From an uncultured Oscillospiraceae bacterium (GTDB taxonomy: Bacteria; Bacillota; Clostridia; Oscillospirales; Oscillospiraceae), in assembly GCA_944387205.1 (NCBI GenBank), contig CALXDZ010000081.1:1-55315 (forward strand): 55,315 nt of DNA, given 5' to 3'. The notes beneath the pieces are model-generated. The model was given only the letters and a program-made list of their open reading frames with translations, did no database searches and was not told where the DNA came from. The translations under genes and the position numbers were made by a program. Positions 5,363 to 32,920 of the stretch are shown here, piece after piece (the stretch's first letter is position 1; the number at the start of each line of letters is the position of its first letter).

Positions 5363-5392
5363 TTGACAGGGGGATAAATCCTCTGATACAAT
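5363..5392 (+). promoter_or_regulatory. sigma-A-type promoter of the catabolic cluster
   Basis: TTGACA (5363-5368) and TACAAT (5387-5392) are 18 bases apart, giving a leader of about 75 bases before the E1alpha start. This is the strongest promoter candidate I found ahead of the 24-kb plus-strand gene run. Confidence 0.75.
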
Positions 5393-5395
5393 CCC

Positions 5396-5410
5396 AGTTG
5401 TAGGACAACT
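5396..5410. promoter_or_regulatory. candidate GntR-type operator at the transcription start
   Basis: AGTTGTAGGACAACT is a perfect palindrome with 6-base arms and a 3-base centre, starting 4 bases after the -10 box and so covering the expected +1. Its core TTGTAGGACAA fits the TnGTnnnACnA pattern described for FadR-type GntR operators. The GntR regulator encoded at 30079 is the obvious candidate to bind it, although that protein is of the UTRA type. Confidence 0.5.
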
Positions 5411-5472
5411 GACATTCATCAAGTCGGCGCAATTTGCCCTCAAATAACTACAAGGATATGGAGGAGAGAAGT

Positions 5473-6453
5473 ATGAATTGCACAGTGGCAAAAGAAACCT
5501 TGCTCGACATCTATACCCGTATGGTGACGATCAGGAAGTTTGAAGAAAAAGCGGGCGCGATTTTTGCCCAGGGACAGCTCAATGGCTTTTTGCACCTGTA
5601 TGTGGGCGAGGAAGCCGTGGGCGCAGGTGTTTGTGCAGCACTGAATGATGATGACTATATCGTCAGCACCCACCGCGGCCATGGCCATCTGATTGCCAAG
5701 GGCGGCGATGTGAACAAGATCATGGCAGAGCTCTACGGAAAGGTCACCGGCTACTGCAAGGGCAAGGGCGGCTCCATGCACGTGGCGGACTTCTCCAAGG
5801 GCATGCTGGGCGCCTGCGGCATCGTGGGCGGCGGCATTCCCATCGCGGTGGGCGCGGCGCTCTCCAGCAAGCTGCAGGGCACCCGGCAGGTGGCGGTCAC
5901 CTTCTTTGGTGACGGCGCCTCCAACGAAGGAAGCTTCCATGAGTCCATCAACTTTGCCGCAGTGCAGAAGCTGCCGGTGATCTTCCTGGTGGAGAACAAC
6001 GGCTATGGTGAATTCACTCCTCAGTGCAGAGCCATGTGCATCGAAGACATCGCCGACCGTGCCAAGGGCTACGGCATCCCCGGCGTGATCGTGGACGGCA
6101 TGGACGCAGTCGCGGTGTATACCACCGTGGCGCAGTGGGTGGAAAAGCTCCGCAACGGCGAGGGCCCTGTGCTGATTGAGGCCAAGACCCACCGCAAGAG
6201 CGGCCACTCCGAAGGTGAAGTTGCCTTCCTGGACGGCCAGCCCTACCGCCTGCCGGAAGAGGAGAAGATCGCCAAGGAAACGGACTGCATCGACAATCTG
6301 CGGCAGTATCTGCTGGCCAATACCGATGCCACCCAGGCTGATCTGGATGCCATCGATCAGGCGGCTGCCAAGAAGATCGAGGATGCTGTGGAATTTGCCA
6401 AGAACAGTCCCTTCCCCACGGCAGAGGATCTGTTTACCGACACTTGGGTTTGA
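5473..6453 (+). CDS. TPP-dependent 2-oxoacid/acetoin dehydrogenase E1, alpha subunit
   Basis: 326 residues of the PDH E1-alpha/AcoA family. The thiamine diphosphate motif GDGASNEGSFH...NN is present, with HRGHGH and the conserved GKGGSMH segment earlier. With E1-beta it decarboxylates a 2-oxoacid, or cleaves a diketone, and passes the acyl group to E2 lipoyl. I chose the ATG at 5473 because GGAGGAG lies 5-9 bases upstream; the frame extends to a TTG at 5434 without a ribosome site. It is the first gene after the cluster promoter. The substrate cannot be read from sequence: acetoin dehydrogenase, PDH and branched-chain enzymes share this architecture. Confidence 0.9.
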   Translation: MNCTVAKETLLDIYTRMVTIRKFEEKAGAIFAQGQLNGFLHLYVGEEAVGAGVCAALNDDDYIVSTHRGHGHLIAKGGDVNKIMAELYGKVTGYCKGKGGSMHVADFSKGMLGACGIVGGGIPIAVGAALSSKLQGTRQVAVTFFGDGASNEGSFHESINFAAVQKLPVIFLVENNGYGEFTPQCRAMCIEDIADRAKGYGIPGVIVDGMDAVAVYTTVAQWVEKLRNGEGPVLIEAKTHRKSGHSEGEVAFLDGQPYRLPEEEKIAKETDCIDNLRQYLLANTDATQADLDAIDQAAAKKIEDAVEFAKNSPFPTAEDLFTDTWV

Positions 6454-6471
6454 GATGAGGGGTGAGATGTC

Positions 6472-7440: not shown

Positions 7441-7454
7441 AGGAGGAGTAAGCC

Positions 7455-8447: not shown

Positions 8448-8494
8448 TTTCGCCGTCTCAAACGCTGAAGTAAGGAGGTCTGTAGGGGGAAGCT

Positions 8495-12119: not shown

Positions 12120-12186
12120 CCCCTTTTATTTCGCTGTACCCGTCCCCATACAAGCGCAAAGGAAAAAGGAACCCCCGGTGGATTTG

Positions 12187-12203
12187 AGCAAGTGTCTCTT
12201 GCT
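12187..12203 (+). other. intercistronic hairpin before the first binding protein
   Basis: AGCAAG and CTTGCT pair around a 5-base loop in the 114-base gap between permease 2 and the binding protein. There is no T-tract after it, so it is more likely an RNA-stability element than a terminator. Confidence 0.35.
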
Positions 12204-12233
12204 TGAATAATATTTCAAAACATGGAGGTAAGT

Positions 12234-13292
12234 ATGAAAAAGTTTTTTGCAATGCTCTTAGCGATTTGTATGGTTGCCGTTATGCTTGTGGGCTGCGGTG
12301 ACACGGCGTCTTCCTCTTCCAATGGATCTGACACGCAAAGCAATGCCAGTGATTACAAGGTGGCTCTGCTGCTTCCCGGCAGTGCCAACGACAAGAGCTG
12401 GAACCAGTATGGCTACGATGCCCTGATGAAGGTCAAGGATGAGCTGGGCGTGGAAGTGGCCTACTCCGAGAACGTGACCAATGTGGACCTGCAGCAGGCT
12501 CTGCGGGACTACGCTTCCCAGGGCTATGACATGATCATCGGCCACACCGGCGGCTTTGAGGACGACATGATCAAGGTCTCTGCCGATTTCCTCGACACCA
12601 AGTTCGTCTGCATTGCCGGTTCTACGGGCAATGATGTCAATGTGACCTCTGTGGATACCGCTCCCTGGCAGTATGGCTATGCCTACGGCTGGATGGCCTC
12701 CCAGGTCTCCCAGACCGGCAAGGTGGGCTACATCACTGCCAATGAGGGCACCGGCACCCAGAACAACCTGGTGGGCAGCTGGAAGGACGGCGTCAAGGCC
12801 AACAATCCGGACACCCAGGGTACTGTGGTTTATCTGAGCGACTCCGACGACGTGGCCTCTGCCCGTGAGGCTGCTCTGGCCATGATCTCCGCCGGCTGCG
12901 ACGTGGTCATGCACGAGCTCAACCGCGCTGCCCAGGGCGTTATCGATGTGTGCAAGGAGAAGGGCGTCTATACCATCGGCAGAAGCGCTGAAGATGTTGC
13001 TGCCGCTCCCGACCAGGTCCTGACCTACTGCAACTTCGACTGGGGCCCCAAGTATGTCTATCTGGTGGAGCAGGGCATGTCCGGCGCCCTGGAACCCGGC
13101 TTCCTGTTCTTCGGCTTCAATACTCCCGAGGCTCCGGGCTTCACCTTCACCTATGACGACGCCAACGGCTGGAATCCCAATGTGGTTTCCGAGGAGATCC
13201 TGGCCAAGTTCAAGACCGACGTGGAGGAGATGTTCATCGCCGATCCCGCCCGTTCCTACACTACAGAGCAGGCTGCTGGCGGTACTTTCTAA
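12234..13292 (+). CDS. BMP-family substrate-binding lipoprotein 1
   Basis: 352 residues. The signal peptide MKKFFAMLLAICMVAVMLVGC ends in a lipobox with lipid-modified C21. The mature part is a Bmp/PnrA-type fold with LLPGSANDKSWNQYGYDAL, an aromatic-rich pocket segment APWQYGYAYGWMASQ and ADPARSYTTEQAAGG at the end. Known relatives bind purine nucleosides. I chose the ATG at 12234 because GGAGGT lies 5 bases upstream. A close paralogue follows at 13465, so one importer has two binding proteins. Confidence 0.92.
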   Translation: MKKFFAMLLAICMVAVMLVGCGDTASSSSNGSDTQSNASDYKVALLLPGSANDKSWNQYGYDALMKVKDELGVEVAYSENVTNVDLQQALRDYASQGYDMIIGHTGGFEDDMIKVSADFLDTKFVCIAGSTGNDVNVTSVDTAPWQYGYAYGWMASQVSQTGKVGYITANEGTGTQNNLVGSWKDGVKANNPDTQGTVVYLSDSDDVASAREAALAMISAGCDVVMHELNRAAQGVIDVCKEKGVYTIGRSAEDVAAAPDQVLTYCNFDWGPKYVYLVEQGMSGALEPGFLFFGFNTPEAPGFTFTYDDANGWNPNVVSEEILAKFKTDVEEMFIADPARSYTTEQAAGGTF

Positions 13293-13340
13293 AAAAGAGC
13301 AAGCCCTCAGGTATTTTGCGGGCTGTCTCGCTAGGCGGCA

Positions 13341-13362
13341 GGCCGCTCTATTGAGAGCGGCC
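13341..13362 (+). other. strong hairpin between the two binding-protein genes
   Basis: GGCCGCTCT and AGAGCGGCC form a perfect 9-bp stem around ATTG. It is followed by GC-rich sequence rather than a T-run, so it probably stabilises or processes the mRNA of the first lipoprotein. Confidence 0.45.
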
Positions 13363-13464
13363 GCCGCTGCGACGGGAGAGTCCTTCAGACCCATGATTTG
13401 TTGCTGGAGTCTCTTGAAAAACGATCTTCTCTGGATATCGCTGGCTGAAAGGAAGGAAACGCTT

Positions 13465-14523
13465 ATGAAACGACTCTCTGCACGACTTGTACTGGGTATG
13501 ATCTGCCTTACGCTCCTGGTGGGATGCGGCTCCGCTTCTTCCGGTACCTCAACCTCTTCAGGGGAAAATGAGGGAAAACAGATCCGCGTGGCATGTCTGC
13601 TTCCCGGCAGTGCCAGCGATCGCAGTTGGAGCCAATTTGGCTATGAGGCGTTGATGCAGGTGAAAGAGCAGCTGGGGGCCGATGTGGTGTACAGCGAGAA
13701 CATCGCTGATGCCGATCTGCTGCCGGCACTTCGAGGCTATGCCTCTGATGGCTATGATGTGATCTTTGGCCATGGCGGACAGTTCCAGGATGCCATGGAA
13801 AAGGTGGCGCCTGAGTATCCCGATACGGAGTTTCTGGTGATCTGCGGCGCAAATCCCACCGGCGAAAATGTCACAGCTGCGGACAACGCGCCTTGGCAGT
13901 ACGGCTATGCCTATGGTTGGATGGCCTGCCAGATCAGCCAGACCAAAAAGGTTGGGTATGTGGGAGCTCTGGAGGGTATCGATGTGACCAACAACTTTGT
14001 GGGCAGTATCAAGGATGGCCTGAAAACCAAGGACCCCAACTGTCAAATTTCCGTTATCTATCTGGATGACAACAATGATGTAGCTGCAGCCAGGGAAGCA
14101 GCCAACGCGCTGGCTGCCGCAGGATGTGACGTGATCCTCCATGAGCTCAACAGAGGTGCTCAGGGCGTGGTAGACGTATGCAAGGAGAAAAACATCTACA
14201 CCCTGGGACGAAGTGAAGCCGATGTGGCCTATGCTCCGGACCAGGTGCTGGCGTATTGTGACTATGGATGGAGCTCCAAATATGTGAGCTTGACCAAGAT
14301 GGCCATGAATGGAGAGCTGGAAGGCGGAACCATGTACTTCGGCTATCACACTGCGCCGGAAGCGCCGGGATTTGCATTTGTCTATGACGAGGAGAATTCC
14401 TGGAACCCCAAAGCAGTTACGGAGGAAATGCTGGACAATTTCCAAGTAGAAGTGGTGGATATGTTTGTTGCAGACCCCATCCGCTCCTATACGGTGGAGC
14501 AGGCGGCAGGAGGTACTTTCTGA
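13465..14523 (+). CDS. BMP-family substrate-binding lipoprotein 2 (tandem paralogue)
   Basis: 352 residues, the same length as lipoprotein 1, with lipobox LLVGC (C21) and near-identical landmarks: LLPGSASDRSWSQFGYEAL, APWQYGYAYGWMACQ and ADPIRSYTVEQAAGG. The frame extends upstream to 13054 inside the previous gene, but AAAGGAAGG before the ATG at 13465 and the signal peptide fix the start. The two copies look like a tandem duplication that has diverged at many positions, which suggests different ligands or affinities on one transporter. Confidence 0.9.
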   Translation: MKRLSARLVLGMICLTLLVGCGSASSGTSTSSGENEGKQIRVACLLPGSASDRSWSQFGYEALMQVKEQLGADVVYSENIADADLLPALRGYASDGYDVIFGHGGQFQDAMEKVAPEYPDTEFLVICGANPTGENVTAADNAPWQYGYAYGWMACQISQTKKVGYVGALEGIDVTNNFVGSIKDGLKTKDPNCQISVIYLDDNNDVAAAREAANALAAAGCDVILHELNRGAQGVVDVCKEKNIYTLGRSEADVAYAPDQVLAYCDYGWSSKYVSLTKMAMNGELEGGTMYFGYHTAPEAPGFAFVYDEENSWNPKAVTEEMLDNFQVEVVDMFVADPIRSYTVEQAAGGTF

Positions 14524-14635
14524 TCCCTTGGGCGTAGGGAAAATATTGAGAAAGGGGAGCCTCCTGCTGTAAAAAACATTTTCAAGAAGTTGGACTTCTA
14601 ACAACAAATACATATTTAAAAAAAGAGGGACTGTT

Positions 14636-15391: not shown

Positions 15392-15427
15392 AGCTCACTT
15401 CTATTACTTTTAAGAAAGGACTCCGTT

Positions 15428-16186: not shown

Positions 16187-16226
16187 TCATCCATTTACTT
16201 ATTACTAATAAGAGAGGCCGGTTTCA

Positions 16227-17471: not shown

Positions 17472-17474
17472 CTT

Positions 17475-18662: not shown

Positions 18663-18677
18663 GTGGTGGAGAAAACC

Positions 18678-20159: not shown

Positions 20160-20878
20160 AGATTTTTGTGATCTCCCCCATCCTTCCCCCGGAGGGAGAG
20201 GATTACCGGGAGCAGTACCGGCGCAGAGACAGCGCCCAGATCCCGGCGGAGTTCTCCTTTGCCTATATCGACAAGGGGCCCCGGTTCATCCAGAACGCCT
20301 ATGACGATGCCTGTGCAGCGCCGGATCTGATCCGGAAGATCCAGGCGGCGGAGCGGGACGGAGCGGACGCCGTGGTCATCAACTGCAGCGCGGATACAGC
20401 GCTGCGGGCCTGCCGGGAGGCTGTGTCCATTCCGGTCATCGGCCCCAGTGAGTGTACCATGCTCTATGCCTCCCAGTTGGTGGACAGCTTTACGGTCCTG
20501 ACCTTTGCCAAGCGCATCAACGGCCGTTTTCAACGGATCGCCCAGGAGCTGGGCCTTTCCCACCGCCTGGCGGCAGTGGAATCCGTGGAGATGGACTTTG
20601 ACGACATCAGCAACGGACAGGACAAGGTGGTGGACAAGCTCTATGAGACCATCCGCGCCATCCATGAGCGCACCGGATGCGACGGATATATCCTGGGCTG
20701 CACGGACTTTGAGGACGTGGCACCTGCACTCACCGAGCGCCTCCAGGGCGGCGGGGTGGACGTGATCTTGTTCAAGCCCTATGAGATCGCCGCCTGGCAG
20801 GCCTATATCACTGCAAAAATGGGGCTGCGTCAGGGCAGCGCCAGCTATCCCAAGCCCCTGTTTCCAATATCTGAATGA
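20156..20878 (+). CDS. Asp/Glu/hydantoin racemase superfamily protein
   Basis: 240 residues with the two opposed catalytic cysteines of the superfamily, C77 in INCSAD and C182 in LGCTDF. The superfamily includes hydantoin and allantoin racemases, as well as maleate isomerase and arylmalonate decarboxylase. Because it lies next to a cyclic-amidase gene (14-base gap) in a cluster with a carbamoylase, hydantoin/allantoin racemase is the best guess. The substrate loop after the first cysteine is not the standard CxDPGLxxAR form, so specificity may differ. Confidence 0.8.
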   Translation: MKIFVISPILPPEGEDYREQYRRRDSAQIPAEFSFAYIDKGPRFIQNAYDDACAAPDLIRKIQAAERDGADAVVINCSADTALRACREAVSIPVIGPSECTMLYASQLVDSFTVLTFAKRINGRFQRIAQELGLSHRLAAVESVEMDFDDISNGQDKVVDKLYETIRAIHERTGCDGYILGCTDFEDVAPALTERLQGGGVDVILFKPYEIAAWQAYITAKMGLRQGSASYPKPLFPISE

Positions 20879-20891
20879 AAGAGGTTTGCTT

Positions 20892-22262
20892 ATGAAAGTT
20901 GATCTGCTTATCAAAAACGCGCAAATCGTCAGCGCCCGTGATACAGTGGCCGGCTGCATCGCGGTAAAGGACGGCAAGATCGCCGCCATTGCCGACAGCC
21001 CCGAGGGCTTTGAGGCTGCCCGGGTCATCGATGCCGGCGGAAAGCCGGTGCTGCCCGGCGGCATTGACGTGCATGTCCACTTCCGGGATCCCGGCCTGAC
21101 CTACAAGGAGGATTTCTCCACCGGCTCCATGGCGGCAGCCGCCGGCGGTATCACTACCGTCTACGATATGCCCAATGTGCAGCCCCCCACGCTGAATGTG
21201 GAGAACTTCCAGATCAAGAAGAAGATCGCCGAGGAGAAGTCCTACGTCAACTACGGCATCTACGCCTATCTGGTCAATAACCTGGACCAGATCGACGCCC
21301 TCATCGAGGCCGGCGTGTGCGGCTTCAAGTGGGACCTGAGCACCTTCGACTGGGAGCTGCCCGAGGGCTACTATCTGCCCGATAACAACGAGGCTGCCGA
21401 TATCTTCAAGAAGATCGCGGCCCACGACTATGTGGTCACGGTCCATGCCGAGGACATGGAGCTGGTGAAGAACTACACCGAGCACCTCAAGGAGAGCGGC
21501 CGGGACCCCAAGGACTTCTTCTCCCATGTGGAAGCCCGCCCCGATATCGTGGAGGTCTCCGCCCTGTACCGCACCTTCGTGCTCTCTGAGGTGTCCGGCT
21601 GCCGGGTACATATCACCCACCTGACCTCCAAGCGGGGCCTGGAGCTGATCAAGGAGTTCCAGCACAAGGGCACCCCCGTCACCTCCGACGTGGGCCCGGC
21701 CTGGTTCACCTTCTGCGCCGAGGACTATGAGAAGTTCGGCGGCGGCATCCGCGTCATTCCCGCCATCCGCTATGAGAAGGACCGGGAGGCCCTGTGGAAC
21801 GGCCTGGCCAACGGCGACATCGAGGTGCTGGCCACCGACCACGCCCCCCACTCCAACGATGAGAAGTTCAACCGCAGCTGGTGGGATACCCTGCCCGGCA
21901 CCATCGGCGTCCAGACCAGCCTGCCCATCATGCTGGACCATGTGAACAAGGGCGAGGTGACACTCAACCGCGTGGTGGAGTGCATGGCCGAGAAGCCCGC
22001 CCAGATCTTCAACATCTTCCCCCGCAAGGGTCAGATCGCTGTGGGCGCCGACGCCGACCTGGTGGTCGTGGATATGGACAAGGAGTGGACCGTCACCCAC
22101 GAGGAGATGTACAGCAAGACCAAGTACACCCCCTATGATGGCTTCAAGCTCAAGGGTAAGCCCGTCATGACCATCGTCATGGGCGAAGTGGTCATGGAGG
22201 ACGGCAAGATCGTGGGCAAGCCCGGTGTGGGCCGGATGGTCAATCCCAGAAAGGACTGGTAA
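20892..22262 (+). CDS. allantoinase/dihydropyrimidinase-like cyclic amidohydrolase
   Basis: 456 residues with a complete binuclear-zinc site: H61-x-H63 (HVHFRDPG), K146 in GFKW as the carboxylated bridging lysine, H185, H240 or H243 (HITHL) and D316 (ATDHAPH). The FRDPG and ATDHAPH pattern is nearest to allantoinase and dihydroorotase-type enzymes, which open a cyclic ureide to a carbamoyl product. I moved the start from 20781 to the ATG at 20892, where MKVDLLIKNAQIV begins with GAGG upstream. Allantoin, a 5-substituted hydantoin or a dihydropyrimidine are all possible; no pyrimidine-biosynthesis genes flank it, which argues against PyrC. Confidence 0.87.
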   Translation: MKVDLLIKNAQIVSARDTVAGCIAVKDGKIAAIADSPEGFEAARVIDAGGKPVLPGGIDVHVHFRDPGLTYKEDFSTGSMAAAAGGITTVYDMPNVQPPTLNVENFQIKKKIAEEKSYVNYGIYAYLVNNLDQIDALIEAGVCGFKWDLSTFDWELPEGYYLPDNNEAADIFKKIAAHDYVVTVHAEDMELVKNYTEHLKESGRDPKDFFSHVEARPDIVEVSALYRTFVLSEVSGCRVHITHLTSKRGLELIKEFQHKGTPVTSDVGPAWFTFCAEDYEKFGGGIRVIPAIRYEKDREALWNGLANGDIEVLATDHAPHSNDEKFNRSWWDTLPGTIGVQTSLPIMLDHVNKGEVTLNRVVECMAEKPAQIFNIFPRKGQIAVGADADLVVVDMDKEWTVTHEEMYSKTKYTPYDGFKLKGKPVMTIVMGEVVMEDGKIVGKPGVGRMVNPRKDW

Positions 22263-22265
22263 TCC

Positions 22266-22997
22266 ATGATTATTGATCACCACAACCATGTATGGGAAGG
22301 CGAATCCACCGGAGGCTTTCTGGATGAGAGCATGAGCGTGGGCCGTATCCTGCGGGAGATGGACCAGGCGGGCGTGGATATGTGCGGTGTGTGCACCGTG
22401 GCTCAGGCCATTGACAACGACTATGTGGTCAAGGCCCAGCGGGAGCATCCCGACCGGCTTTTCGGCTACTGCATGGTCAATCCCAGAATGCCCGGCGCCA
22501 GAGACACGCTGAAAAAGTATCTGGACCTGGGGCTCAAGGGCCTCAAGCTCCATCCCCGTCTCCACGGCTACCAGCTGGGAGATCTGGGCATGATCGCCCC
22601 GCTGATGGAGCTGTGCCGGGAGTATAAGGTGCCCATGTTTTCCCACGGCGGGTCCGAGGAAAATGACCACCCGTTCTACTTTGAGGAGATCGCCCGGGCG
22701 TTCCCGGACGTGACGGTGATCCTGGGCCATATGTGTGCACTGAACTACTGCGACGATGCCATCCTGGTGGCCAGCCGCAATGAAAACATCTATCTGGACA
22801 CCTCCACCGCCGAGCTCTTCTCCCTGAAGGCGGCGCTGAAGAAGGTGGGCGCGTCCCGGATCATGATGAGCACTGACTGGCCCGGAAACGATTTCCGCAT
22901 GGAACTTTTGAAAGTCAGGATCGCCACAGAAGGCGACGACGAGGCATACCGCCTGATTGCCGGCGGCAATTATGAGAGGATCCTGAAGGGATACTGA
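22266..22997 (+). CDS. amidohydrolase-2 family TIM-barrel hydrolase/decarboxylase
   Basis: 243 residues, beginning MIIDHHNHVW with the HxH metal pair H6 and H8, KGLKLHPRLHGYQL in the middle, LGHM, and the conserved acidic STDWPGND near the end. This is the PF04909 (amidohydrolase 2) pattern, whose members hydrolyse lactones or decarboxylate small acids. It starts 3 bases after the cyclic amidase stop and is probably co-translated with it. Its place suggests that it acts on the opened product; nothing specifies the bond. Confidence 0.82.
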   Translation: MIIDHHNHVWEGESTGGFLDESMSVGRILREMDQAGVDMCGVCTVAQAIDNDYVVKAQREHPDRLFGYCMVNPRMPGARDTLKKYLDLGLKGLKLHPRLHGYQLGDLGMIAPLMELCREYKVPMFSHGGSEENDHPFYFEEIARAFPDVTVILGHMCALNYCDDAILVASRNENIYLDTSTAELFSLKAALKKVGASRIMMSTDWPGNDFRMELLKVRIATEGDDEAYRLIAGGNYERILKGY

Positions 22998-23031
22998 TTT
23001 ATATAAAACAAACAGAAGGGAATTGAGAGAC

Positions 23032-23700
23032 ATGGATCAGAAACTGGTTGTAATGCTTACCGACAACGACGAGACCGTTGCCACCGCGAAGGCGGACTTC
23101 CTGGCCGCTGCCGACCTGCCGGTGCAGGAGTGGGGCTTCAAGGACGTGGGCCTGCCTCTGGATCAGATGGTGGACCTGGTCAAGACCATGAAGGCCCATG
23201 GCAAGCGCACCAACCTGGAAGTGGTTTCTCTGTCTGAGGAAGAGGGCCTGGCCGGCGCCAAGATCGCCGTGGAGGCTGGCTTTGATGTGCTGATGGGCAC
23301 GGTCTACTATGACTCCATCCGTGACTACCTGGCCGGCACCGGCGTGCAGTACTATCCGTTCTGCGGCAAGGTCTACGGCCATCCCTCCGTGCTGGACGGC
23401 AGCATTGAGGAGATCGTGGCCCACGCCAAGGAGCTGGAGGCCAAGGGCGTGGACGGCATCGACCTGCTGTCCTTCCGTTACACCGGCGACGCCATGGCAC
23501 TGCTGGCCGAGGTGGTCAAGGCTGTGAAGGTTCCCGTTATCTCCGCCGGCAGCGTGGACCGCTATCAGCGCATCGACGATATCGCAGCCACCGGCGCAGC
23601 CGGCCTGACCATGGGCTCTGCCCTGTTCCACAACAAATATGTGGAGGGCGGCTTTGTGGACAACCTCAAGGACGTGTACAACTACATGAGCAACCACTAA
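23032..23700 (+). CDS. unassigned (beta/alpha)8-type protein
   Basis: 222 residues that I cannot place in a named family. Alternating hydrophobic strands (VVMLTDND, TNLEVVSL, FDVLMGTVYY, GIDLLSFRY, VPVISAGSV) and a C-terminal GAAGLTMGSALF suggest a TIM barrel with a phosphate-binding end like HisA, GlpP or thiazole synthase. Such an end would suit a phosphorylated substrate, and an FGGY kinase is encoded 857 bases further on. I use the ATG at 23032 rather than the in-frame TTG at 23023. An aldolase, isomerase or lyase is possible; none is supported directly. Confidence 0.75.
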   Translation: MDQKLVVMLTDNDETVATAKADFLAAADLPVQEWGFKDVGLPLDQMVDLVKTMKAHGKRTNLEVVSLSEEEGLAGAKIAVEAGFDVLMGTVYYDSIRDYLAGTGVQYYPFCGKVYGHPSVLDGSIEEIVAHAKELEAKGVDGIDLLSFRYTGDAMALLAEVVKAVKVPVISAGSVDRYQRIDDIAATGAAGLTMGSALFHNKYVEGGFVDNLKDVYNYMSNH

Positions 23701-23739
23701 ACCACAAAATTCCACAGCAAAATATAAAGGAGGATCATT

Positions 23740-24531
23740 ATGGATATTTCTATGGTCAACGCCAACATGAAATTGGTGGAGAACAACCATCTGAGCATTT
23801 CCCGGGCCGCTCTGGCTCCTGGCGATTCCATTTTGCTGCCCAAGGCTTTCATGCTGGACAGCATTCTGCCTGAGTTCAAGAACACCAAGGTCCACTACTA
23901 TGCCGCTCCCTGCATGGGCGCCAAGTTCCTGGAGTGCAAGCTGATCATCGAGAAGGATGGCGGCAGCAAGGAAGCCATTGTCAACGGCTATGAGAACTTC
24001 ATGTATGTGATCTCCGGTGAGGTGGAAGTGCTGATCTCCGGCAAGAAGCACACCATGGAGGCCGAGGGCTACTTCTGGCTGCCTCCCATGGTGGACTTCG
24101 AGATCTGCAACAAGAAGGACGAGACTGCCAACGTGCTGTGGGTCCGCAAGCGCTATGAGGAGACCAAGTTCTACTCTGTGCCCGATCCCATCATCTCCAG
24201 CGTGCTGGATATTCCCCCTGTGCAGAACATCGCCGAGATCGAGCAGCAGTGCCTGCCCTTCGAGAAGAACTTCGGCTTTGATATGGCCATGAATATGCTG
24301 ACCTTCGCTCCCGGTGTCACCTTCCCCTGCGTGGAGGGCCACATCTTCGAGCACGGCGGCTACTTCCTCAACGGCCGTGGCAACTTCTGGATCAACAACA
24401 CCAACTATGAGATCCACGAGGATGACTTCTGCTACATGGCGCCTTTTACCCCCCACTATGTGGTGGCCTATGGCCCCAAGCCCCTGCGCTATCTGCTCTA
24501 TAAGAACGTGAACCGCGATTTTGCGCTGTAA
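23740..24531 (+). CDS. bicupin, (S)-ureidoglycine aminohydrolase-like (YlbA/AllE family)
   Basis: 263 residues with two cupin domains (about 45-135 and 180-260). The second contains the metal site E199, H201 and H205 in VEGHIFEHG, and the family's end APFTPHYVVAYG...YLLYKNVNR. AllE/UGlyAH releases ammonia from ureidoglycine to give ureidoglycolate in purine degradation. In the Arabidopsis enzyme the fourth Mn ligand, as I recall it, is a glutamine 34 residues after the last histidine; here that position is H239. The family placement is firm, but the substitution may mark another substrate. AAAGGAGG precedes the ATG. Confidence 0.87.
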   Translation: MDISMVNANMKLVENNHLSISRAALAPGDSILLPKAFMLDSILPEFKNTKVHYYAAPCMGAKFLECKLIIEKDGGSKEAIVNGYENFMYVISGEVEVLISGKKHTMEAEGYFWLPPMVDFEICNKKDETANVLWVRKRYEETKFYSVPDPIISSVLDIPPVQNIAEIEQQCLPFEKNFGFDMAMNMLTFAPGVTFPCVEGHIFEHGGYFLNGRGNFWINNTNYEIHEDDFCYMAPFTPHYVVAYGPKPLRYLLYKNVNRDFAL

Positions 24532-24556
24532 GAACTTGAAAACAGGAGGCGGAGAC

Positions 24557-26026
24557 ATGGAAAGAGAAGCATATCTGCTGGCTGTGGACCAGGGAACCTC
24601 TGGAACCATGGTGGCTCTTTTGGATACGAAGGCGCAAATGGTGGATGCTGTGGACATTCCTGTCTCCGTCTCCACTCCCCATTACAGTTTTGTGGAACAG
24701 GACCCGCAGGAACTGATCCGCTCTATCCGGGAGGGGGCCCAGAAGCTGATGGCGGCGCACCCGGACAAGCTGGATGCTCTTTTGGGCGCGGGCTTTGCCA
24801 ACCAGGGAGAGTCTTTCCTCCTTTGGGACTGGGAGACCGGAGAGCCGGTGACCCCGGTGATCAGCTGGCAGGACGGCCGCTGCGAGGCGCTGTGCCAGCA
24901 GTTGGTGGACCAGGGAAAGGACCAGTGGTTCCATCAGCGGACCGGCCTGCACCTGTCCAGCGAGTGGCCCGCCCTCAAGCTCCGGTGGCTGCGGGAAAAT
25001 GAGGCCGGCCTCAAAAAGCTCTGGGACGCTGGCCGGTTGGCTTATGGCCAGCTGGACGCCTGGTTCCTGTATGCGCTCACCGGGGGACGGTGTTATGCCT
25101 CTGACCACAGCACGGCCTGCCGCTCGGGCCTCTGCAATCTGCGTACGCTGGACTGGGATCAGGAGCTGATCGCCGGCTTTGGGGCCGAGGGGCTGCGTCT
25201 GCCGCCTCTGTGCGACAACACCGCCCAGTTTGAGGGAGTGGACCTGGGCATTGGAAAGCGCCTTCCCTGGGTGGCTGGAGGTCTGGATCAATCCATGGCG
25301 CTGCTGGGGCAAAGATGCATCGCCCCTCACACGGCCAAGGTGACCTATGGTACCTGCTGCGCCTGTTGGATGAATATGGGCGACGAAGTGGTACTGGATG
25401 ACCATCTGACCACCAGTGTGGCCTGGAAAGCAGGGCAGAGCCCTGTCTATGCCCTGGCGGCGGAAGGCGGCGCGGCAGGCAGCATCGTCACCTGGCTTCA
25501 GCGCAACTTCAAGCCCGAGTGGAAGACGGGCCAGCTCTCCGATCTGGCGCGGGAGTGCGGAGAGGACAGCGCGGTGGTGTTTGTTCCCGCCTTCAACGGC
25601 CTGGGGGCGCCCTATTGGGATGCTGCGGCTCGAGGGACGCTGTTCGGCGTCACTGCCGGCACTGCGCCTGCTCATATCCTGCGGGCGGGGCTGGATGCGG
25701 TGGCCTACACGGTGAAGGATATCCTCAGCGTCATGCCCCCCTGCAAGGCCCTGGTGGCCGACGGCGGGATGTGCGCCAACGAATACCTCATGGAAAAACA
25801 GGCCAATGTGCTGGGCCAGCCGGTGCTCTGCCCGGAAAACCGGGAGGGGACCATCACTGGCGTGGGGTATCTCATGTGCTTGAGCCTGGGGCTGTTTCGA
25901 TCTTTGGAGGAGATCCCTCAGTCCTTCCGGGACCGCAAGATCGTACCCGGCCGGGAGGATGTGAAGGGCTATGCCCAGTGGAAGCGGGCAGTGAATGCGA
26001 CCATAGACTTTTATAAGCAAAGCTGA
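24557..26026 (+). CDS. FGGY-family carbohydrate kinase (glycerol-kinase-like)
   Basis: 489 residues. The N-terminal phosphate loop LAVDQGTSGT, the GGLDQSMALLGQR region, LGAPYWDAAARGTLFG (very like the glycerol-kinase signature) and DGGMCANEYLMEKQAN are all present, so both ATPase-fold lobes are intact. These kinases phosphorylate glycerol, pentuloses or other polyols. No glycerol facilitator or glycerol-3-phosphate dehydrogenase is nearby, so a cluster-specific polyol or keto sugar is more likely. Start chosen at 24557 with AGGAGG upstream. Confidence 0.87.
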   Translation: MEREAYLLAVDQGTSGTMVALLDTKAQMVDAVDIPVSVSTPHYSFVEQDPQELIRSIREGAQKLMAAHPDKLDALLGAGFANQGESFLLWDWETGEPVTPVISWQDGRCEALCQQLVDQGKDQWFHQRTGLHLSSEWPALKLRWLRENEAGLKKLWDAGRLAYGQLDAWFLYALTGGRCYASDHSTACRSGLCNLRTLDWDQELIAGFGAEGLRLPPLCDNTAQFEGVDLGIGKRLPWVAGGLDQSMALLGQRCIAPHTAKVTYGTCCACWMNMGDEVVLDDHLTTSVAWKAGQSPVYALAAEGGAAGSIVTWLQRNFKPEWKTGQLSDLARECGEDSAVVFVPAFNGLGAPYWDAAARGTLFGVTAGTAPAHILRAGLDAVAYTVKDILSVMPPCKALVADGGMCANEYLMEKQANVLGQPVLCPENREGTITGVGYLMCLSLGLFRSLEEIPQSFRDRKIVPGREDVKGYAQWKRAVNATIDFYKQS

Positions 26027-26088
26027 TTTACCATGCCTTGAAAGTTCAGAATACTGTGAACATCAAAGTAGATAGGAGAATCATCACC

Positions 26089-27384
26089 ATGGACAGACTG
26101 CAAAAAACCAATGCGCTCCAGGAGCGCGCCATGAAGAGTATGCCTCTGGGTGTGAATTCCAACGGCCGTTTCTGGGGCAAGGGCTGCACGCCTTACTTCA
26201 GCCGTGGCAAGGGTTCCCATATGTGGGACGTGGACGGCAATGAGTACATCGACTATCGACTGGGCTTCGGTCCTGTCATCCTGGGCTATGCCTATGATGA
26301 GGTGGACAATGCGGTCATCGAGGCCCTCCACAGCGGCGTGACGCCGGGCATTACCTGCGAACGCGAGGTGGAGGTGGCCGAGGCGGTCATCAATATGTGC
26401 CCCGCGGTGGAAATGGTTCGTCTGGTCAACACCGGCTCCGAAGCCACCATGAATGCCATCCGCGTGGCCAGAGCCTATACCCGCAGAGAGAAGATCATCA
26501 AGCTGGAAGGCGGCTATCACGGCGGATATGACTATGTGCTCTACTCCACCTATGCGCCTCCCACCGCCTACGGCAACCGCCGGGACCCCATCAAGATTCC
26601 TGCCAGCTCCGGCATTCCCAGAGCGCTGGACGATCTGATCATTCCCATCCCCTTCAATGATCCCGAGGTGCTGGAGCTGACGCTCAAGCGCTATGGTCAC
26701 GAGGTGGCCGCCATCATCACCGAGCCCATGCTGGGTAACTTCGGCCTGGCCGATCCCAAGCCCGGTTATATGGACTTCCTGCGCAAGAAGTGCGATGAGT
26801 ATGGCATTTTGTGGATCCTGGACGAGGTCAAGACCGGCTTCCGTGTGGCCAAGGGCGGCGCTCAGGAGCGTTATGGCTATCGTCCCGACCTGTCCACCTT
26901 TGCCAAGTCCATCGGCAACGGCTTCCCCATCGCCGCCTACGGCGGCCGCAAGGAGGTCATGGACATCGTGGGCAAGGGCGTCACCCAGGGCGGTACCTAT
27001 GCGGGCAACGGCGTGGGCACTGCGGCTGCCAAGGCTACCCTCCATATCATGCAGACCCAGGATGTGCACAAGCACATCGATTCCATGGGCACCCGGCTGC
27101 AGAAGGGCCTGGCTCAGGTCTTTTCCGAGGTGGGCATCCCCTGCCTCATCAGCTCCATCCCCTCCATCTTCTCCGTCACCTTCGGCCTGGAGAAAAATGA
27201 GGATGCCCGCGACTGGGGCAAGGCGGACAGCGGCCTTTATAAGAAGCTGGCGGCCAAGGTCTTTGAAAAGGGCGTGCTGATCGACGAAGATCCCAGAGAG
27301 CCCTTCTGCCTGTGCTATTCCCACTCTGAAGCCGACATCGATTTCACCATCGAGGCCTTCCGCCAGGCAGTCAAGGAGCTGTAA
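26089..27384 (+). CDS. class III PLP-dependent aminotransferase
   Basis: 431 residues of the glutamate-1-semialdehyde/omega-aminotransferase type, with NTGSEATMNAIR (PLP phosphate), D245 in DEVKTGFR and the PLP lysine K273 in FAKSIGNGFP. Members move an amino group between an amine or amino acid and an aldehyde or oxoacid. In a ureide cluster it could aminate glyoxylate or another oxo-product, or work on a beta-amino acid. It is not HemL in context, since no haem genes are near. AGGAGA lies before the ATG at 26089. Confidence 0.88.
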   Translation: MDRLQKTNALQERAMKSMPLGVNSNGRFWGKGCTPYFSRGKGSHMWDVDGNEYIDYRLGFGPVILGYAYDEVDNAVIEALHSGVTPGITCEREVEVAEAVINMCPAVEMVRLVNTGSEATMNAIRVARAYTRREKIIKLEGGYHGGYDYVLYSTYAPPTAYGNRRDPIKIPASSGIPRALDDLIIPIPFNDPEVLELTLKRYGHEVAAIITEPMLGNFGLADPKPGYMDFLRKKCDEYGILWILDEVKTGFRVAKGGAQERYGYRPDLSTFAKSIGNGFPIAAYGGRKEVMDIVGKGVTQGGTYAGNGVGTAAAKATLHIMQTQDVHKHIDSMGTRLQKGLAQVFSEVGIPCLISSIPSIFSVTFGLEKNEDARDWGKADSGLYKKLAAKVFEKGVLIDEDPREPFCLCYSHSEADIDFTIEAFRQAVKEL

Positions 27385-27410
27385 GAAACAACAAGGAGGA
27401 TTTTGCTGCT

Positions 27411-27920
27411 ATGAACGCTTACGATATGCTTCTGACCAGAAAGAGCGTGCGCTCCTACACGGGTGCTCACGTGGACGACGAGCTGGTGGAGAAGATCATG
27501 CTGGCCGGCACCCGGGCTCCCTCCGGTATGGCCAACGAGCCCTGGCGCTTTGCCGTGGTGCGTGATCCCAAGGTCAAGGGGGAGATTGCCCAGCTGACCA
27601 AGCACACCAAGGTGCTGGAGGGCGCTGATGTGCTCATCTGCCTGTTTATGGACAATTCCGTGGGCTATAACGCCACCAAGGACGCCAACACCATCGGCGC
27701 CTGCGCGGAGAATATGCTGCTGGCGGCCCACGCTCTGGGCCTGGGTGCAGTGTGGATCGCTGAGATCCTCAAGAACAAGGAGCAGGTGACCGAGCTGTGC
27801 GGCGTGGACGGTTCCCGCTATGACCTGATGGTGGTCATCCCCGTGGGCTACAGCGCGGAGAATGCCGATCCCAACCCCAGAAAGAACTCTGTGGCGGACT
27901 GCATCATCTCCAGAAAGTAA
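27411..27920 (+). CDS. nitroreductase-family flavoprotein
   Basis: 169 residues, single-domain FMN nitroreductase fold: RKSVRSYTG at the N-terminus, APSGMANEPWRFAVV and GLGAVWIAEI later. Members reduce nitro groups, quinones or flavins, dehalogenate or dehydrogenate. Its place between an aminotransferase and E3, and two genes before a flavin reductase, suggests a redox step of the pathway. Preceded by AAGGAGG. Confidence 0.87.
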   Translation: MNAYDMLLTRKSVRSYTGAHVDDELVEKIMLAGTRAPSGMANEPWRFAVVRDPKVKGEIAQLTKHTKVLEGADVLICLFMDNSVGYNATKDANTIGACAENMLLAAHALGLGAVWIAEILKNKEQVTELCGVDGSRYDLMVVIPVGYSAENADPNPRKNSVADCIISRK

Positions 27921-27957
27921 GAGATTTTCTATTTCAACAGACAGGAGCGATTGACCC

Positions 27958-29328
27958 ATGGATCATTCCTTTGACCTAATCGTTCTGGGTGCCGGACCTG
28001 GCGGCTATGTAGCCGCCATCCGGGCATCCCAGCTGGGGCTGAAAACAGCCGTCATTGAAAAAAAGCATGTGGGCGGCGTCTGCCTCAATATCGGCTGCAT
28101 TCCGTCCAAGAACCTGATCCGCAGCGCCAGTCTGCTGACGGAGGCCAAGCAGCTGGAAGCCTTCGGCGTGCAGGTAGACGCTTCCCGGCTGGACTATGCC
28201 GCCGTGCATGCCCAGTCCAGAAAGGTGGCTGAGACCCTCTCCAAGGGCGTCAGCTTCCTGCTCAGCAAGAACAACATCACCCTTGTGGAGGCGGAGGGCG
28301 AGCTGGTGGATGCCCACACGGTCAAGACCTCCGCTGGGGAGACGTTGACGGCAAAGAACATCCTCATTGCCACCGGCTCCTCCCCTCGGGTCATTCCCGG
28401 TCTGGAGTTTGATGGGGAGAAGGTGCTCTCCTCCGACGACATCCTCATGACCAACCAGCTCCCCGGCAGCATCTGCATCATCGGCGGCGGCGCCATCGGC
28501 TGTGAGTTCGCCTATGTGCTGCGCAGCTTCGGTGTTGCGGTGACGCTGGTGGAGATGACCCCCCATCTGCTGCCCTATGAGGATGAGGAGATCGCCAAGG
28601 CTCTGGCCACCTCCTTTAAGAAAAAGGGCATCTCCGTCCACCTGGAGTCCAAGGCGGTCATCACCGCCCGGGAGCCTCAGGTCACAGTGGAGATCGAAAA
28701 CGCCAAGGGCGTGAAGAAAGCCGTTACGGTGGACAAGGTCCTGGCTGTGGTGGGCAGAGCGCCCAACACGGCAGGCATCGGCCTGGAGAATCTGGGCATT
28801 GCCACAGAGCGGGGCTTCATTCCCGTCAACGAGCACTTTGAGACCGCTTGCCCTGGCGTCTATGCCATCGGCGATGTGATCCCCTCTCCCATGCTGGCTC
28901 ATGTGGCCTCCCACGAGGGTGAGATGGCCGTGGAGCACATGGCCGGGATCGCTCACGAGGCCAAAAAGACCTATGTGCCCAACTGCGTCTACTGTGAGCC
29001 CCAGGTGGCAGGCTTCGGCATCACCTCCGCCCAGGCGGAGACTGCCGGCGCAAAGGTCTATTCCTTCCCCTTCCGTGCCATCGGCAAAGCCGTTGCCATT
29101 GGAAAGAGCGAGGGTATGGTGAAGATCCTGGCGGACGGCTCCGGAAAGATTCTGGGCGCCCATATCATCGGCGCTGAGGCCACGGAGCTGATCCACGAGC
29201 TGGCCATTGCGGCCTCCAATGGTGTCCGGATGCAGGATATCGCCGGGGCCATCCATGCCCACCCCACCCTTTCCGAGGCCATCAAAGAGTGCTGCTGCGG
29301 GTTTGAAAATCGGGTCATTCATCTGTGA
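27958..29328 (+). CDS. lpdA: dihydrolipoamide dehydrogenase (E3)
   Basis: 456 residues with FAD motif GAGPGG, the redox-active disulfide C42 and C47 (GGVCLNIGCIPSK), the NAD motif GGGAIGCEFA and the catalytic HAHPTLSE at the C-terminus. There is no N-terminal lipoyl domain. It re-oxidises the E2 lipoyl group and so completes the dehydrogenase encoded at 5473-8447, although it sits at the opposite end of the gene run; that supports one functional unit. Full family length. Confidence 0.93.
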   Translation: MDHSFDLIVLGAGPGGYVAAIRASQLGLKTAVIEKKHVGGVCLNIGCIPSKNLIRSASLLTEAKQLEAFGVQVDASRLDYAAVHAQSRKVAETLSKGVSFLLSKNNITLVEAEGELVDAHTVKTSAGETLTAKNILIATGSSPRVIPGLEFDGEKVLSSDDILMTNQLPGSICIIGGGAIGCEFAYVLRSFGVAVTLVEMTPHLLPYEDEEIAKALATSFKKKGISVHLESKAVITAREPQVTVEIENAKGVKKAVTVDKVLAVVGRAPNTAGIGLENLGIATERGFIPVNEHFETACPGVYAIGDVIPSPMLAHVASHEGEMAVEHMAGIAHEAKKTYVPNCVYCEPQVAGFGITSAQAETAGAKVYSFPFRAIGKAVAIGKSEGMVKILADGSGKILGAHIIGAEATELIHELAIAASNGVRMQDIAGAIHAHPTLSEAIKECCCGFENRVIHL

Positions 29329-29343
29329 CAAGGAGCAACCGTC

Positions 29344-29880
29344 ATGAAAAAGGCAATCGATCTGAAGCGTAAGGCATATCTGTATCCGGCTCCTGCTTTG
29401 GTCATCGGCACGATGGCCGGGGAAAAGGTCAACTGGTCTACCGTTGCTTATCATGGCATTCTGGACAGTCAGACCATTTTGCTTACCATTGAGTCCAGTC
29501 ACCTTACCACAAAGGCAATCCGTGAGGTGGGGCGCTTTTCTGTCAATATTCCCAGCTCAAAGGACGCAAAATGTACGGACTATGTGGGTACCCGCAGCGG
29601 GAATACCTGTGACAAGTCGGAGTATTTCCCCTGCACCCTCTTTGATTCCGCTGTCCCGGTGATCGATACGTTCGCACTGAGCTACATCTGCCGGATGGAA
29701 GAGTGCTATGAGAAAAACGGCAAGACCTATGTGATCGCCACGGTTACAAATGTGCTGGCGGAGGAAGGCTTGGTCCGTGAGGACGGGCTGATCGATCTTC
29801 TTAAGCTGGATCCCTTGCTGTTTGATTGGACGGGCTACTACAAAGTGGGAGGCTATGTGGGGCGGCCATTTTCCAAGTAA
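29344..29880 (+). CDS. flavin reductase-like FMN-binding protein
   Basis: 178 residues of the flavin reductase-like family (PF01613): split-barrel FMN binding with NWSTVAYHG, TTKAIREVGRFSVNIPS and a C-terminal FDWTGYYKVGGYVGR segment. Members either supply reduced flavin or act as ferric or ring reductases with bound FMN. It is the last gene of the run; no clear terminator lies between it and the GntR gene. Confidence 0.87.
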   Translation: MKKAIDLKRKAYLYPAPALVIGTMAGEKVNWSTVAYHGILDSQTILLTIESSHLTTKAIREVGRFSVNIPSSKDAKCTDYVGTRSGNTCDKSEYFPCTLFDSAVPVIDTFALSYICRMEECYEKNGKTYVIATVTNVLAEEGLVREDGLIDLLKLDPLLFDWTGYYKVGGYVGRPFSK

Positions 29881-29976
29881 AAGTATTTATCGGACGGAGT
29901 GCAAGGCTTTCACCGCCTATTTCTAATTACGTAAGGATATTTTTTCCTTTTATGTAAAAGATAGGTACTTTTAGGC

Positions 29977-30852: not shown

Positions 30853-30880
30853 AAATTGCCCCAAGGCAAAGAGACGTTCC

Positions 30881-32917: not shown

Positions 32918-32920
32918 GGC

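Follow-up and report, generated by a model that had tools for sequence, protein, structure and literature searches.

A conserved gene island of an uncultured Oscillospiraceae bacterium that may degrade a substituted cyclic ureide

What does a bacterium consume when it encodes ureide-ring hydrolases in a single run with a kinase, several dehydrogenases and a complete E1–E2–E3 dehydrogenase complex? This question is raised by a stretch of 55,315 nucleotides, contig CALXDZ010000081.1 of assembly GCA_944387205.1 from an uncultured Oscillospiraceae bacterium, which we call the window and to which all gene coordinates refer. An original prediction, made from the sequence alone, described a 23-gene plus-strand cluster and proposed that it degrades a ureide carrying a polyol or hydroxyalkyl part. 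Here, we find that this run belongs to a larger island whose gene order is conserved in a Lachnospiraceae genome, and we tentatively read it as a pathway that breaks down a cyclic ureide with an attached hydroxy- or aminoalkyl chain.

Results

A conserved unit of ureide and carbon-chain genes

The run extends from the first ATG at 5473 to 29880 and comprises 23 plus-strand genes, none of which is interrupted by a stop codon. Pfam and NCBIfam model searches, from which the family calls for window genes are taken, recovered every family of the original prediction in its place, although that gene list had omitted two metal hydrolases (18663–20159 and 22266–22997). A minus-strand set encoding a DAO-family oxidoreductase and the two electron-transfer flavoprotein (ETF) subunits EtfB and EtfA belongs with the run, and the island as a whole amounts to ~27 neighboring genes over ~31,000 bases.

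Two other genomes carry counterparts, at loci designated by L-numbers. The Lachnospiraceae copy consists of three contigs, L164 (E1 alpha to racemase), L074 (cyclic hydrolase to DAO oxidoreductase) and L251 (DAO oxidoreductase to E3), whereas the core genes of a Family XIII (Clostridiales) genome lie on the three contigs L075, L224 and L165. The island genes are listed below with protein identities to these copies.

5473–6453 (+): E1 alpha, acetoin/pyruvate dehydrogenase type (family models); 81% to L164
6472–7440 (+): E1 beta (NF006667); 84% to L164
7455–8447 (+): E2 with one lipoyl domain (ETEKT) and a catalytic domain (HQVLDG) (family models); 61% to L164
8495–10024 (+): ATP-binding cassette (ABC) importer ATPase of sugar/BMP type, two ATPase domains (family models); 74% to L164
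10021–11199 (+): ABC permease 1 (family models); 67% to L164
11196–12119 (+): ABC permease 2 (family models); 72% to L164
12222–13292 (+): BMP-family substrate-binding protein 1 (family models); 57% to the single BMP protein of L164
13465–14523 (+): BMP-family substrate-binding protein 2 (family models); 52% to the same L164 protein
14636–15391 (+): SDR dehydrogenase 1 (family models); 77% to L164
15428–16186 (+): SDR dehydrogenase 2 (family models); 63% to L164
16227–17471 (+): M20 amidase, allantoate amidohydrolase/N-carbamoyl amino acid hydrolase type (NF006771); 51% to L164
17475–18662 (+): Fe-dependent alcohol dehydrogenase; 81% to L164; L165 retains its final 50 residues
18663–20159 (+): COG0402-like metal-dependent hydrolase/deaminase; 46% to L164 and 49% to the fragment in L165
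20156–20878 (+): allantoin/hydantoin-type racemase with two cysteines (Asp/Glu/hydantoin racemase); 69% (L164), 61% (Family XIII)
20892–22262 (+): cyclic-ureide hydrolase, allantoinase/dihydroorotase/hydantoinase superfamily; 83% and 79% in the two relatives
22266–22997 (+): Amidohydro_2 protein, ACMSD/isoorotate decarboxylase fold; 79% and 72% in the two relatives
23023–23700 (+): TIM-barrel protein of phosphate-binding type, ATG at 23032; 76% and 71% in the relatives
23740–24531 (+): bicupin of the (S)-ureidoglycine aminohydrolase family (TIGR03214), one metal ligand changed; 76% and 53% in the relatives
24521–26026 (+): FGGY kinase with altered glycerol pocket, ATG at 24557; 55% and 54% in the relatives
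26038–27384 (+): class III pyridoxal phosphate (PLP) enzyme (aminotransferase), GSAM-like, ATG at 26089 (NF041362); 73% and 70%
27411–27920 (+): small nitroreductase-family flavoprotein (family models); 67% to L074
27958–29328 (+): E3, dihydrolipoyl dehydrogenase (TIGR01350); 70% to L251 (231 residues, contig end), 61% to L224
29344–29880 (+): flavin-reductase-like flavoprotein; no match in the relatives' loci (L251 stops inside E3)
30079–30852 (+): GntR/UTRA regulator with its own promoter-like site at 29977–30005 (family models); no match in the relatives' loci
31188–32135 (−): EtfA, ETF alpha; 42% to L251, in which the DAO oxidoreductase, EtfB, EtfA and E3 all point the same way
32132–32917 (−): EtfB, ETF beta; 49% to L251
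32921–34084 (−): DAO-family FAD oxidoreductase, dimethylglycine/sarcosine dehydrogenase-like; 73–75% to L074/L251
34664–36271 (+): PucR-family regulator, a probable member; a PucR gene also precedes E1 alpha in L164

The Lachnospiraceae copy lies entirely on one strand and starts with a PucR regulator followed by E1 alpha. The 20 genes from E1 alpha to the nitroreductase are collinear with those of the window, save that it has one BMP gene where the window has two (12222–14523), possibly as a result of duplication. Past the nitroreductase the two arrangements differ: the Lachnospiraceae copy continues with DAO–EtfB–EtfA–E3, whereas the window continues with E3, the flavin reductase and GntR, followed by DAO–EtfB–EtfA on the other strand. 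Of 27 window genes tested, 25 have a match there, both BMP genes matching the same one; the exceptions are the flavin-reductase and GntR genes. Protein identities are 42–84% across 24 genes. A single oxidoreductase gene is divided between the ends of L074 and L251, which makes their link firm.

The Family XIII genome holds a rearranged subset. L075 reads racemase–hydrolase–Amidohydro_2–TIM barrel–FGGY, the cupin being absent from between the last two; L224 carries the PLP enzyme (70%), E3 (61%) and the cupin (53%), in that order; and on L165 a fragment of the COG0402-like hydrolase adjoins the Fe-dependent alcohol dehydrogenase, of which the final 50 residues remain, cut at ureG (906–1741). 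This junction is either a rearrangement or island breakpoint, or a misjoined contig. The set racemase–hydrolase–Amidohydro_2–TIM barrel–FGGY–PLP enzyme–E3–cupin is thus common to the three genomes, whereas E1–E2, the importer and DAO–ETF were seen in two. Separately, UreG- and UreD-family genes beside the hydrolase on L165 had suggested a link to urease (urea release), which we dropped because the alcohol dehydrogenase is cut there and urease alpha scored above its cut-off in none of the three genomes (one weak 21.6-bit match occurs in the Family XIII genome).

Because gene order is conserved in the Lachnospiraceae genome and a rearranged subset recurs in the Family XIII genome, the genes from E1 alpha to DAO–ETF appear to form one unit and no chance neighborhood, in line with the proposal that ureide hydrolases and carbon-chain enzymes act together. 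The unit runs beyond 29880, where it had been thought to end, to at least 34084, since the Lachnospiraceae copy carries DAO–EtfB–EtfA–E3 after the nitroreductase gene. The earlier view that the cluster has no known counterpart does not hold for sequenced genomes, which contain one near-complete and one partial copy; in the open-licence literature, judged by title and abstract opening, we found no paper describing it.

Predicted enzymes of the ureide ring

By active-site conservation and model scores, four enzymes resemble those of the allantoin route, with departures from them. In an alignment to 3qvj, its nearest solved relative and an allantoin racemase, the racemase retains both active-site cysteines, which are the residues altered in 3qvk. 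The cyclic hydrolase has HxH, Lys, His, His and Asp in place (alignment read by eye), but scores below the allantoinase model TIGR03178 in all three genomes (350.2, 342.5 and 329.3 bits; cut-off 357.85). The M20 enzyme exceeds the subfamily model NF006771 in both genomes that have it (440.8 and 436.6 bits; cut-off 399) and falls far below the equivalog model for AllC, TIGR03176 (261.6 and 278.9 bits; cut-off 597.75). The cupin lies just over TIGR03214 in all three genomes (204.4, 205 and 204.1 bits; cut-off 200) and far below the other aminohydrolase equivalog models. It retains the E-x-H-x3-H motif and the Lys of AllE, while His replaces the AllE Gln, a metal ligand, in all three genomes. Identities to Escherichia coli AllB, AllC and AllE are 28–34% (34% for M20 against AllC). 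Ureidoglycolate lyase (PF04115) was found in none of the three carrier genomes, whose assemblies are incomplete; a control search matched in 1 of 14, E. coli.

The COG0402-like hydrolase matches TRZ/ATZ and deaminase models. Ring opening and decarbamoylation are the likely core chemistry; the original prediction had the racemase, cyclic hydrolase, M20 enzyme and cupin fit allantoin or hydantoin opening. These four enzymes together with the PucR-family regulators, which flank both main copies, point to purine- or hydantoin-like nitrogen rings.

Kinase, TIM barrel and oxidoreductases

The FGGY family of the kinase was called correctly, and its active site allows a refinement. In all three genomes it keeps Glu84, Trp103, Asp245 and Gln246, while Gly, Glu and Ala replace Arg83, Tyr135 and Phe270; in glycerol kinases these residues contact glycerol, and the Asp is catalytic. 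Its score against the glycerol kinase model is 378.9 bits (cut-off 590.35). The enzyme is no ordinary glycerol kinase and, because three glycerol contacts are lost and an acidic residue is gained in all three genomes, we infer a larger, perhaps cationic substrate.

The TIM-barrel protein matched no specific function model. Its structure model (predicted local distance difference test, pLDDT, 95) is nearest to phosphate-binding barrels, 2-keto-3-deoxy-6-phosphogluconate (KDPG) aldolase and N-acetylmannosamine-6-phosphate epimerase, with modest similarity. An invariant Lys40 lies at the end of strand 2 and an invariant Arg152 in the stretch after strand 6; class I KDPG aldolase, a match at fold level only, has its Schiff-base Lys in strand 6. 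The PLP enzyme scores above NF041362, the GntE transaminase model, in all three genomes (579.8, 574.6 and 578.9 bits; cut-off 525); this label names a family, and no other label that we found points to a GntE pathway. The DAO oxidoreductase is closest to dimethylglycine dehydrogenase and sarcosine oxidase, and action as a dehydrogenase would fit the adjoining ETF genes.

The acyl-CoA complex and the importer

The complete E1–E2–E3 set that had been predicted is present, and we read the complex as acetoin- or pyruvate-dehydrogenase type. E1 beta passes NF006667, a pyruvate dehydrogenase E1 beta subfamily (340 bits; cut-off 321), and E3 passes TIGR01350 (517.7 bits; cut-off 408.8), whereas E1 alpha stays below its best NCBIfam model, TIGR03182 for pyruvate E1 alpha (352.5 bits; cut-off 393.85). 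The best solved relative of E1 alpha is human pyruvate dehydrogenase. Its 60 best of 705 plasmid records (48.9–51.7% identical) include two aco operons, sugar operons and one pdhA label: E1 alpha is 51% and 49% identical to proteins of two operons annotated with an acetoin-dehydrogenase E2, and 51% to the pdhA-labelled relative in Priestia. Identity drops to 39% for Leisingera PdhA, ~30% for other pdhA-labelled records and 28–31% for branched-chain E1. A 14-sequence tree separates it from a PdhA and from a branched-chain E1, with support of 0.12–0.86 for its place among the others. A second set of similar style but 28–48% identity occurs in the Family XIII genome (L253, 5707–14758), where SDR–E1 alpha–E1 beta–ABC ATPase genes lie beside E2–E3–SDR.

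The nucleoside-type importer stood up as far as its BMP family, confirmed by models. BMP-family proteins bind nucleosides or purines, and the nearest solved relatives of the BMP protein include an atrazine-binding protein and TmpC.

Relatives of the TIM-barrel protein

When 84,980 species genomes were scanned with an alignment of the TIM-barrel protein, 180 relatives were confirmed, and we retained the best 80. Among these 80 loci, identity exceeds 61% in L074 (76%) and L075 (70–71%) only, and the Amidohydro_2 protein, the racemase or a close cyclic hydrolase is likewise confined to these two; L122 has a cyclic-hydrolase match of 30%. In single-linkage clusters drawn from 83 loci of very unequal length, 40 loci have an FGGY kinase, 20 a small cupin, 16 a flavin-reductase-like protein and 14 a HAD protein (representatives confirmed by Pfam, except that the flavin-reductase label was assigned by eye). 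An earlier search of 398 genomes gave matches in 128: besides the window's own, four had E ≤ 1e-49 and the rest were weak barrels (E 1.6e-7 or worse).

On plasmids of Mesorhizobium, Gemmobacter and Rhizobium (L007, L008 and L009), the TIM-barrel family adjoins a four-carbon acid sugar kinase and PdxA, and by analogy the barrel there may act on a phosphorylated four-carbon acid.

Rarity and probable horizontal transfer

RpoB of the window genome is 87.5% identical to that of an Oscillospiraceae metagenome-assembled genome (MAG), 81.4% to that of an Oscillibacter MAG and 84.7% to that of a congener (partial), as opposed to 64.6% for the Lachnospiraceae carrier. The latter value is exceeded by 16 of 24 island proteins and not by the other eight, and the island has probably moved horizontally within this pair, as the protein identities strongly suggest.

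In 36 congeners, the cupin had no match better than E 6.6e-4. In 85 congeners, 46 had some match to E2 at E ≤ 0.001, with at most 41% identity over the catalytic part among the matches listed. The Amidohydro_2 protein had some match at E ≤ 0.001 in 113 of 299 genomes from the family to which the Lachnospiraceae carrier belongs, and only the carrier's own was close (79%; next 36%). As close matches to cupin, E2 and Amidohydro_2 protein are nearly absent from the sampled genomes, the island appears to be rare among them. Its carriers presumably live in the gut, judging from their relatives.

Discussion

A model for the island

The analysis shows the gene set, its conserved order and the family and active-site features; the reactions, their order and the substrate proposed here are inferred. 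A substituted ureide would be taken up by the BMP/ABC importer; the COG0402-like hydrolase would strip a ring amino or substituted amino group, the two-cysteine racemase would equilibrate the ring carbon and the cyclic hydrolase would open the ring to a carbamoyl acid. The M20 enzyme would then release the carbamoyl group as NH3 and CO2; hydrolysis of an amine or aminal would fall to the cupin, and decarboxylation or hydrolysis to the ACMSD-fold protein. The chain could next be oxidized by the SDRs, the Fe-dependent alcohol dehydrogenase and the DAO–ETF set; the PLP enzyme may remove or move an amino group, the FGGY kinase may phosphorylate the chain and the TIM-barrel protein may cut or isomerize the product. 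Finally, E1–E2–E3 would convert the resulting hydroxyketone or 2-oxo acid to an acyl-CoA.

We put the chance that the island serves a cyclic ureide (hydantoin- or dihydropyrimidine-type ring) with a hydroxy- or aminoalkyl chain somewhat short of even. The carbon part may be a polyol or hydroxyalkyl, as first proposed. A more specific version, which is possible but which we hold more loosely, is an undescribed anaerobe pathway using both the ring nitrogen and the chain: an amino-polyol would be phosphorylated by the acid-rich, non-glycerol FGGY kinase, cleaved or isomerized by the TIM barrel and converted to an acyl-CoA by the acetoin-dehydrogenase-like complex, the island being mobile between families as one. 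Riboflavin, pterin, oxidized nucleoside and Maillard-adduct substrates were considered, and the analysis favors none of them.

Several observations weigh against this proposal. The four ureide enzymes by themselves would fit plain allantoin, the FGGY kinase and TIM barrel could belong to the use of some separate sugar, and the complex could contain an ordinary pyruvate dehydrogenase E1 because E1 beta passes the pyruvate dehydrogenase cut-off and E1 alpha is nearest to the human pyruvate dehydrogenase structure. The fold of the Amidohydro_2 protein is narrowed to ACMSD/isoorotate decarboxylase by a structure model of modest confidence (three sequences, pLDDT 70.5). The L164–L074 link is deduced from contig ends, and the PucR gene at 34664–36271 is a probable member, being 24% identical to the Lachnospiraceae PucR (over 179 residues; 35% over 80). 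The carrier genomes are metagenome-assembled, the window's bin having 4.96% contamination. The original prediction asked whether related genomes break up the run. In the Lachnospiraceae genome it is intact except for where E3 and DAO–EtfBA lie, whereas the picture in Family XIII is mixed: the core is spread over three contigs or contig ends of a fragmented genome, the cupin has moved and the alcohol dehydrogenase is cut. The Family XIII core contigs hold no E1, E2, importer, SDR, M20, nitroreductase or DAO–ETF genes, and a genome-wide search, which covered E1 beta and DAO only, returned E1 beta as paralogs elsewhere (48% and 42%) plus three weaker matches, and no DAO. Nor do we propose transfer involving Family XIII, since its island identities (53–79%) do not exceed that of an RpoB fragment (74% over 444 residues).

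Several alternatives were weighed. Plain allantoin catabolism would use the racemase, allantoinase, allantoate amidohydrolase and ureidoglycine aminohydrolase to convert allantoin to ureidoglycolate, with the other genes assimilating glyoxylate, a two-carbon unit, by an unusual route. It draws on the racemase's likeness to 3qvj with both cysteines kept, on the M20 and cupin scores over NF006771 and TIGR03214 and on the PucR regulators, but has to contend with the cyclic hydrolase below TIGR03178 and the Gln-to-His change in every cupin, with 28–34% identity to AllB, AllC and AllE and with PF04115 in none of the three incomplete assemblies; in addition, AllD, Gcl, Hyi, GlxR and GlxK have no match at E ≤ 1e-5 among the open reading frames (ORFs) of the window. 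We consider it unlikely, and favor the substituted ureide because allantoin would leave the kinase, TIM barrel, acyl-CoA complex and DAO–ETF set unexplained, and AllA was not found in the three genomes; the PLP enzyme is equally unaccounted for. It is improbable, in our estimate, that the substrate is a hydantoin-type amino-acid adduct (methylglyoxal- or 3-deoxyglucosone-derived arginine hydroimidazolones, or creatinine-type), from which the COG0402-like hydrolase would free an amine, the racemase, cyclic hydrolase and M20 enzyme would yield an amino acid, and DAO–ETF or the PLP enzyme would deaminate it. Hydantoin-type adduct rings epimerize, which would explain the racemase, and dimethylglycine dehydrogenase and sarcosine oxidase are the closest relatives of the DAO oxidoreductase. 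The PLP enzyme also exceeds NF041362, whose namesake acts as a transaminase in a cyclic-guanidine pathway (PMC10367076). Nothing seen, however, indicates a glycated substrate, methylhydantoin and creatinine need neither cupin nor kinase, and a search of open-licence literature titles gave no matching degradation pathway.

There is a small chance that a ureide operon and an unrelated operon for acetoin or a sugar happen to lie side by side. E1 alpha relatives do stand alone in aco or sugar operons, the TIM barrel and FGGY kinase are often paired without ureide genes, and E1–E2 is not with the Family XIII core; but the two kinds of genes are interleaved, with E1–E2 at the start and E3 near the end, the E1–E2 position is kept in Lachnospiraceae, and in Family XIII E3 lies between the PLP enzyme and the cupin. 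Breakdown of a pterin or modified nucleoside with a polyol side chain is very unlikely. The COG0402 family includes purine and pterin deaminases, so the hydrolase could be a pterin- or guanine-type deaminase, and the solved relatives of the BMP protein (atrazine-binding protein and TmpC) and PucR are consistent with it; against it, the 23 genes include no nucleosidase, phosphorylase or molybdenum hydroxylase family, and the cupin and M20 enzyme would have no evident role. A variant of reductive urate catabolism, with the COG0402-like hydrolase, cyclic hydrolase and M20 enzyme acting as SsnA, HyuA and YgeY, seems to us the least probable of all. The urate pathway (PMC12507026, PMC12990295) draws on the same three superfamilies, and the PucR regulators would also fit. 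At E ≤ 1e-5, however, no window ORF matches E. coli YgeX, YgeW, YgfK, YgfM, YqeA or YgeY, or the N-terminal part of XdhD (first 685 bases), and the same holds for the ORFs of L164, L074, L251, L075 and L224, the search having covered the window and these loci. The cyclic hydrolase is 28% identical to HyuA and the COG0402-like hydrolase 23% to SsnA.

If the substituted-ureide proposal is correct, some anaerobes would have a dedicated route for ureides that lie outside both the allantoin and the reductive urate pathways. Possible substrates are then a purine product of the host, a dietary adduct formed on heating and a ureide from plants. With its hydrolases, kinase and TIM barrel, the island also offers an enzyme set for screening, and the TIM-barrel family itself is widespread, with its 180 confirmed stretches and a kinase in 40 of the 83 clustered loci.

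Transcription signals and neighboring genes

Two candidate signals bound the plus-strand genes.

5363–5392 (+): promoter-like site of sigma-70 type, TTGACA-18-TACAAT, −35 box from 5363; 11 of 12 consensus matches
30881–30924, about (+): intrinsic terminator, a G+C-rich hairpin of 13 pairs between runs of A and T; read by eye, and not reported by the pattern scan

Seven promoter-like sites occur in the 5363 region against 5.7 expected; the other six score 9/12 and only 5363–5392 stands out. Such sites are in excess within 20001–36500 (13 against 5.5 in shuffles, standard deviation 2.2), and the frequency of the remaining promoter- and terminator-like sites is near that of shuffled sequence. From E1 alpha to GntR, 19 of 23 gaps span −11 to +47 bases (longest-ORF starts); the four longer ones flank the binding-protein genes (102, 172 and 112 bases) or lie upstream of GntR (198 bases).

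Elsewhere in the window, consecutive minus-strand genes at 36349–41705 encode a class V aminotransferase, a TusA-domain protein, two HGD-D proteins (2-hydroxyglutaryl-CoA dehydratase type) and a BadF-type ATPase. An ABC transporter operon of oligopeptide type lies at 44490–49507 (+), and an M-box magnesium riboswitch (92.5 bits) directly precedes an MgtE transporter gene at 51271–52928 (−).

Comparison with known systems

The island is assembled from known families, and the logic by which a ring is opened, a carbamoyl group removed and a chain passed on to acyl-CoA is a familiar one; the combination appears to be undescribed. The E. coli all gene set resembles the window in its allantoinase-, allantoate-amidohydrolase- and ureidoglycine-aminohydrolase-family enzymes, at 28–34% identity, whereas AllA, AllD, Gcl, GlxR, Hyi and GlxK are unmatched and the window adds a kinase, a TIM barrel, E1–E2–E3, the PLP enzyme, DAO–ETF and an ABC importer. 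The reductive urate cluster (ssnA-hyuA-ygeY-ygeX-ygfK-xdhD) shares an Amidohydro_1 pair and an M20 enzyme, but its signature reductases, carbamoyltransferase and diaminopropionate lyase are unmatched. Ergothioneine-type hydantoin utilization (ErtD/ErtE) likewise combines hydantoinase and N-carbamoylase families, with model cut-offs that the window misses (ErtD 295.8 and 283.4 against 650 and 600; ErtE 393.5 against 520).

Among acyl-CoA-forming systems, aco operons are similar in E1 alpha (51%/49%) and in SDR 1, whose best matches include BudC, butanediol dehydrogenase (below cut-off, 228 against 270); they differ in having AcoX and a sigma-54 regulator, neither among the families of the run, while the window E2 has a 2-oxo-acid acyltransferase domain. 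Pyruvate dehydrogenase complexes share an E1 beta over NF006667, an E3 over TIGR01350 and the 51% Priestia relative labelled pdhA, but E1 alpha is only 39% identical to Leisingera PdhA and ~30% to other pdhA records.

Loci of Anaerolineae, Clostridia and others carry the same TIM-barrel family (44–61% identity), often with an FGGY kinase nearby; their kinases are 20–27% identical to that of the window, and close ureide genes occur only in L074 and L075. One such stretch in Ruminococcus turbiniformis (L109, 784–14740) encodes Hydantoinase_A, E1 alpha, E1 beta, a B12-binding-domain protein, an FGGY kinase, a TIM barrel and E3. It thus resembles the window in uniting E1 alpha, E1 beta, FGGY, TIM barrel and E3 with a hydantoinase-type gene, but has the ATP-type hydantoinase/oxoprolinase family in place of the metal-dependent ureide enzymes, with identities of 24–51%. 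Here, a hydantoinase-type gene is associated for a second time, and in a different manner, with an acyl-CoA complex and the TIM/FGGY pair.

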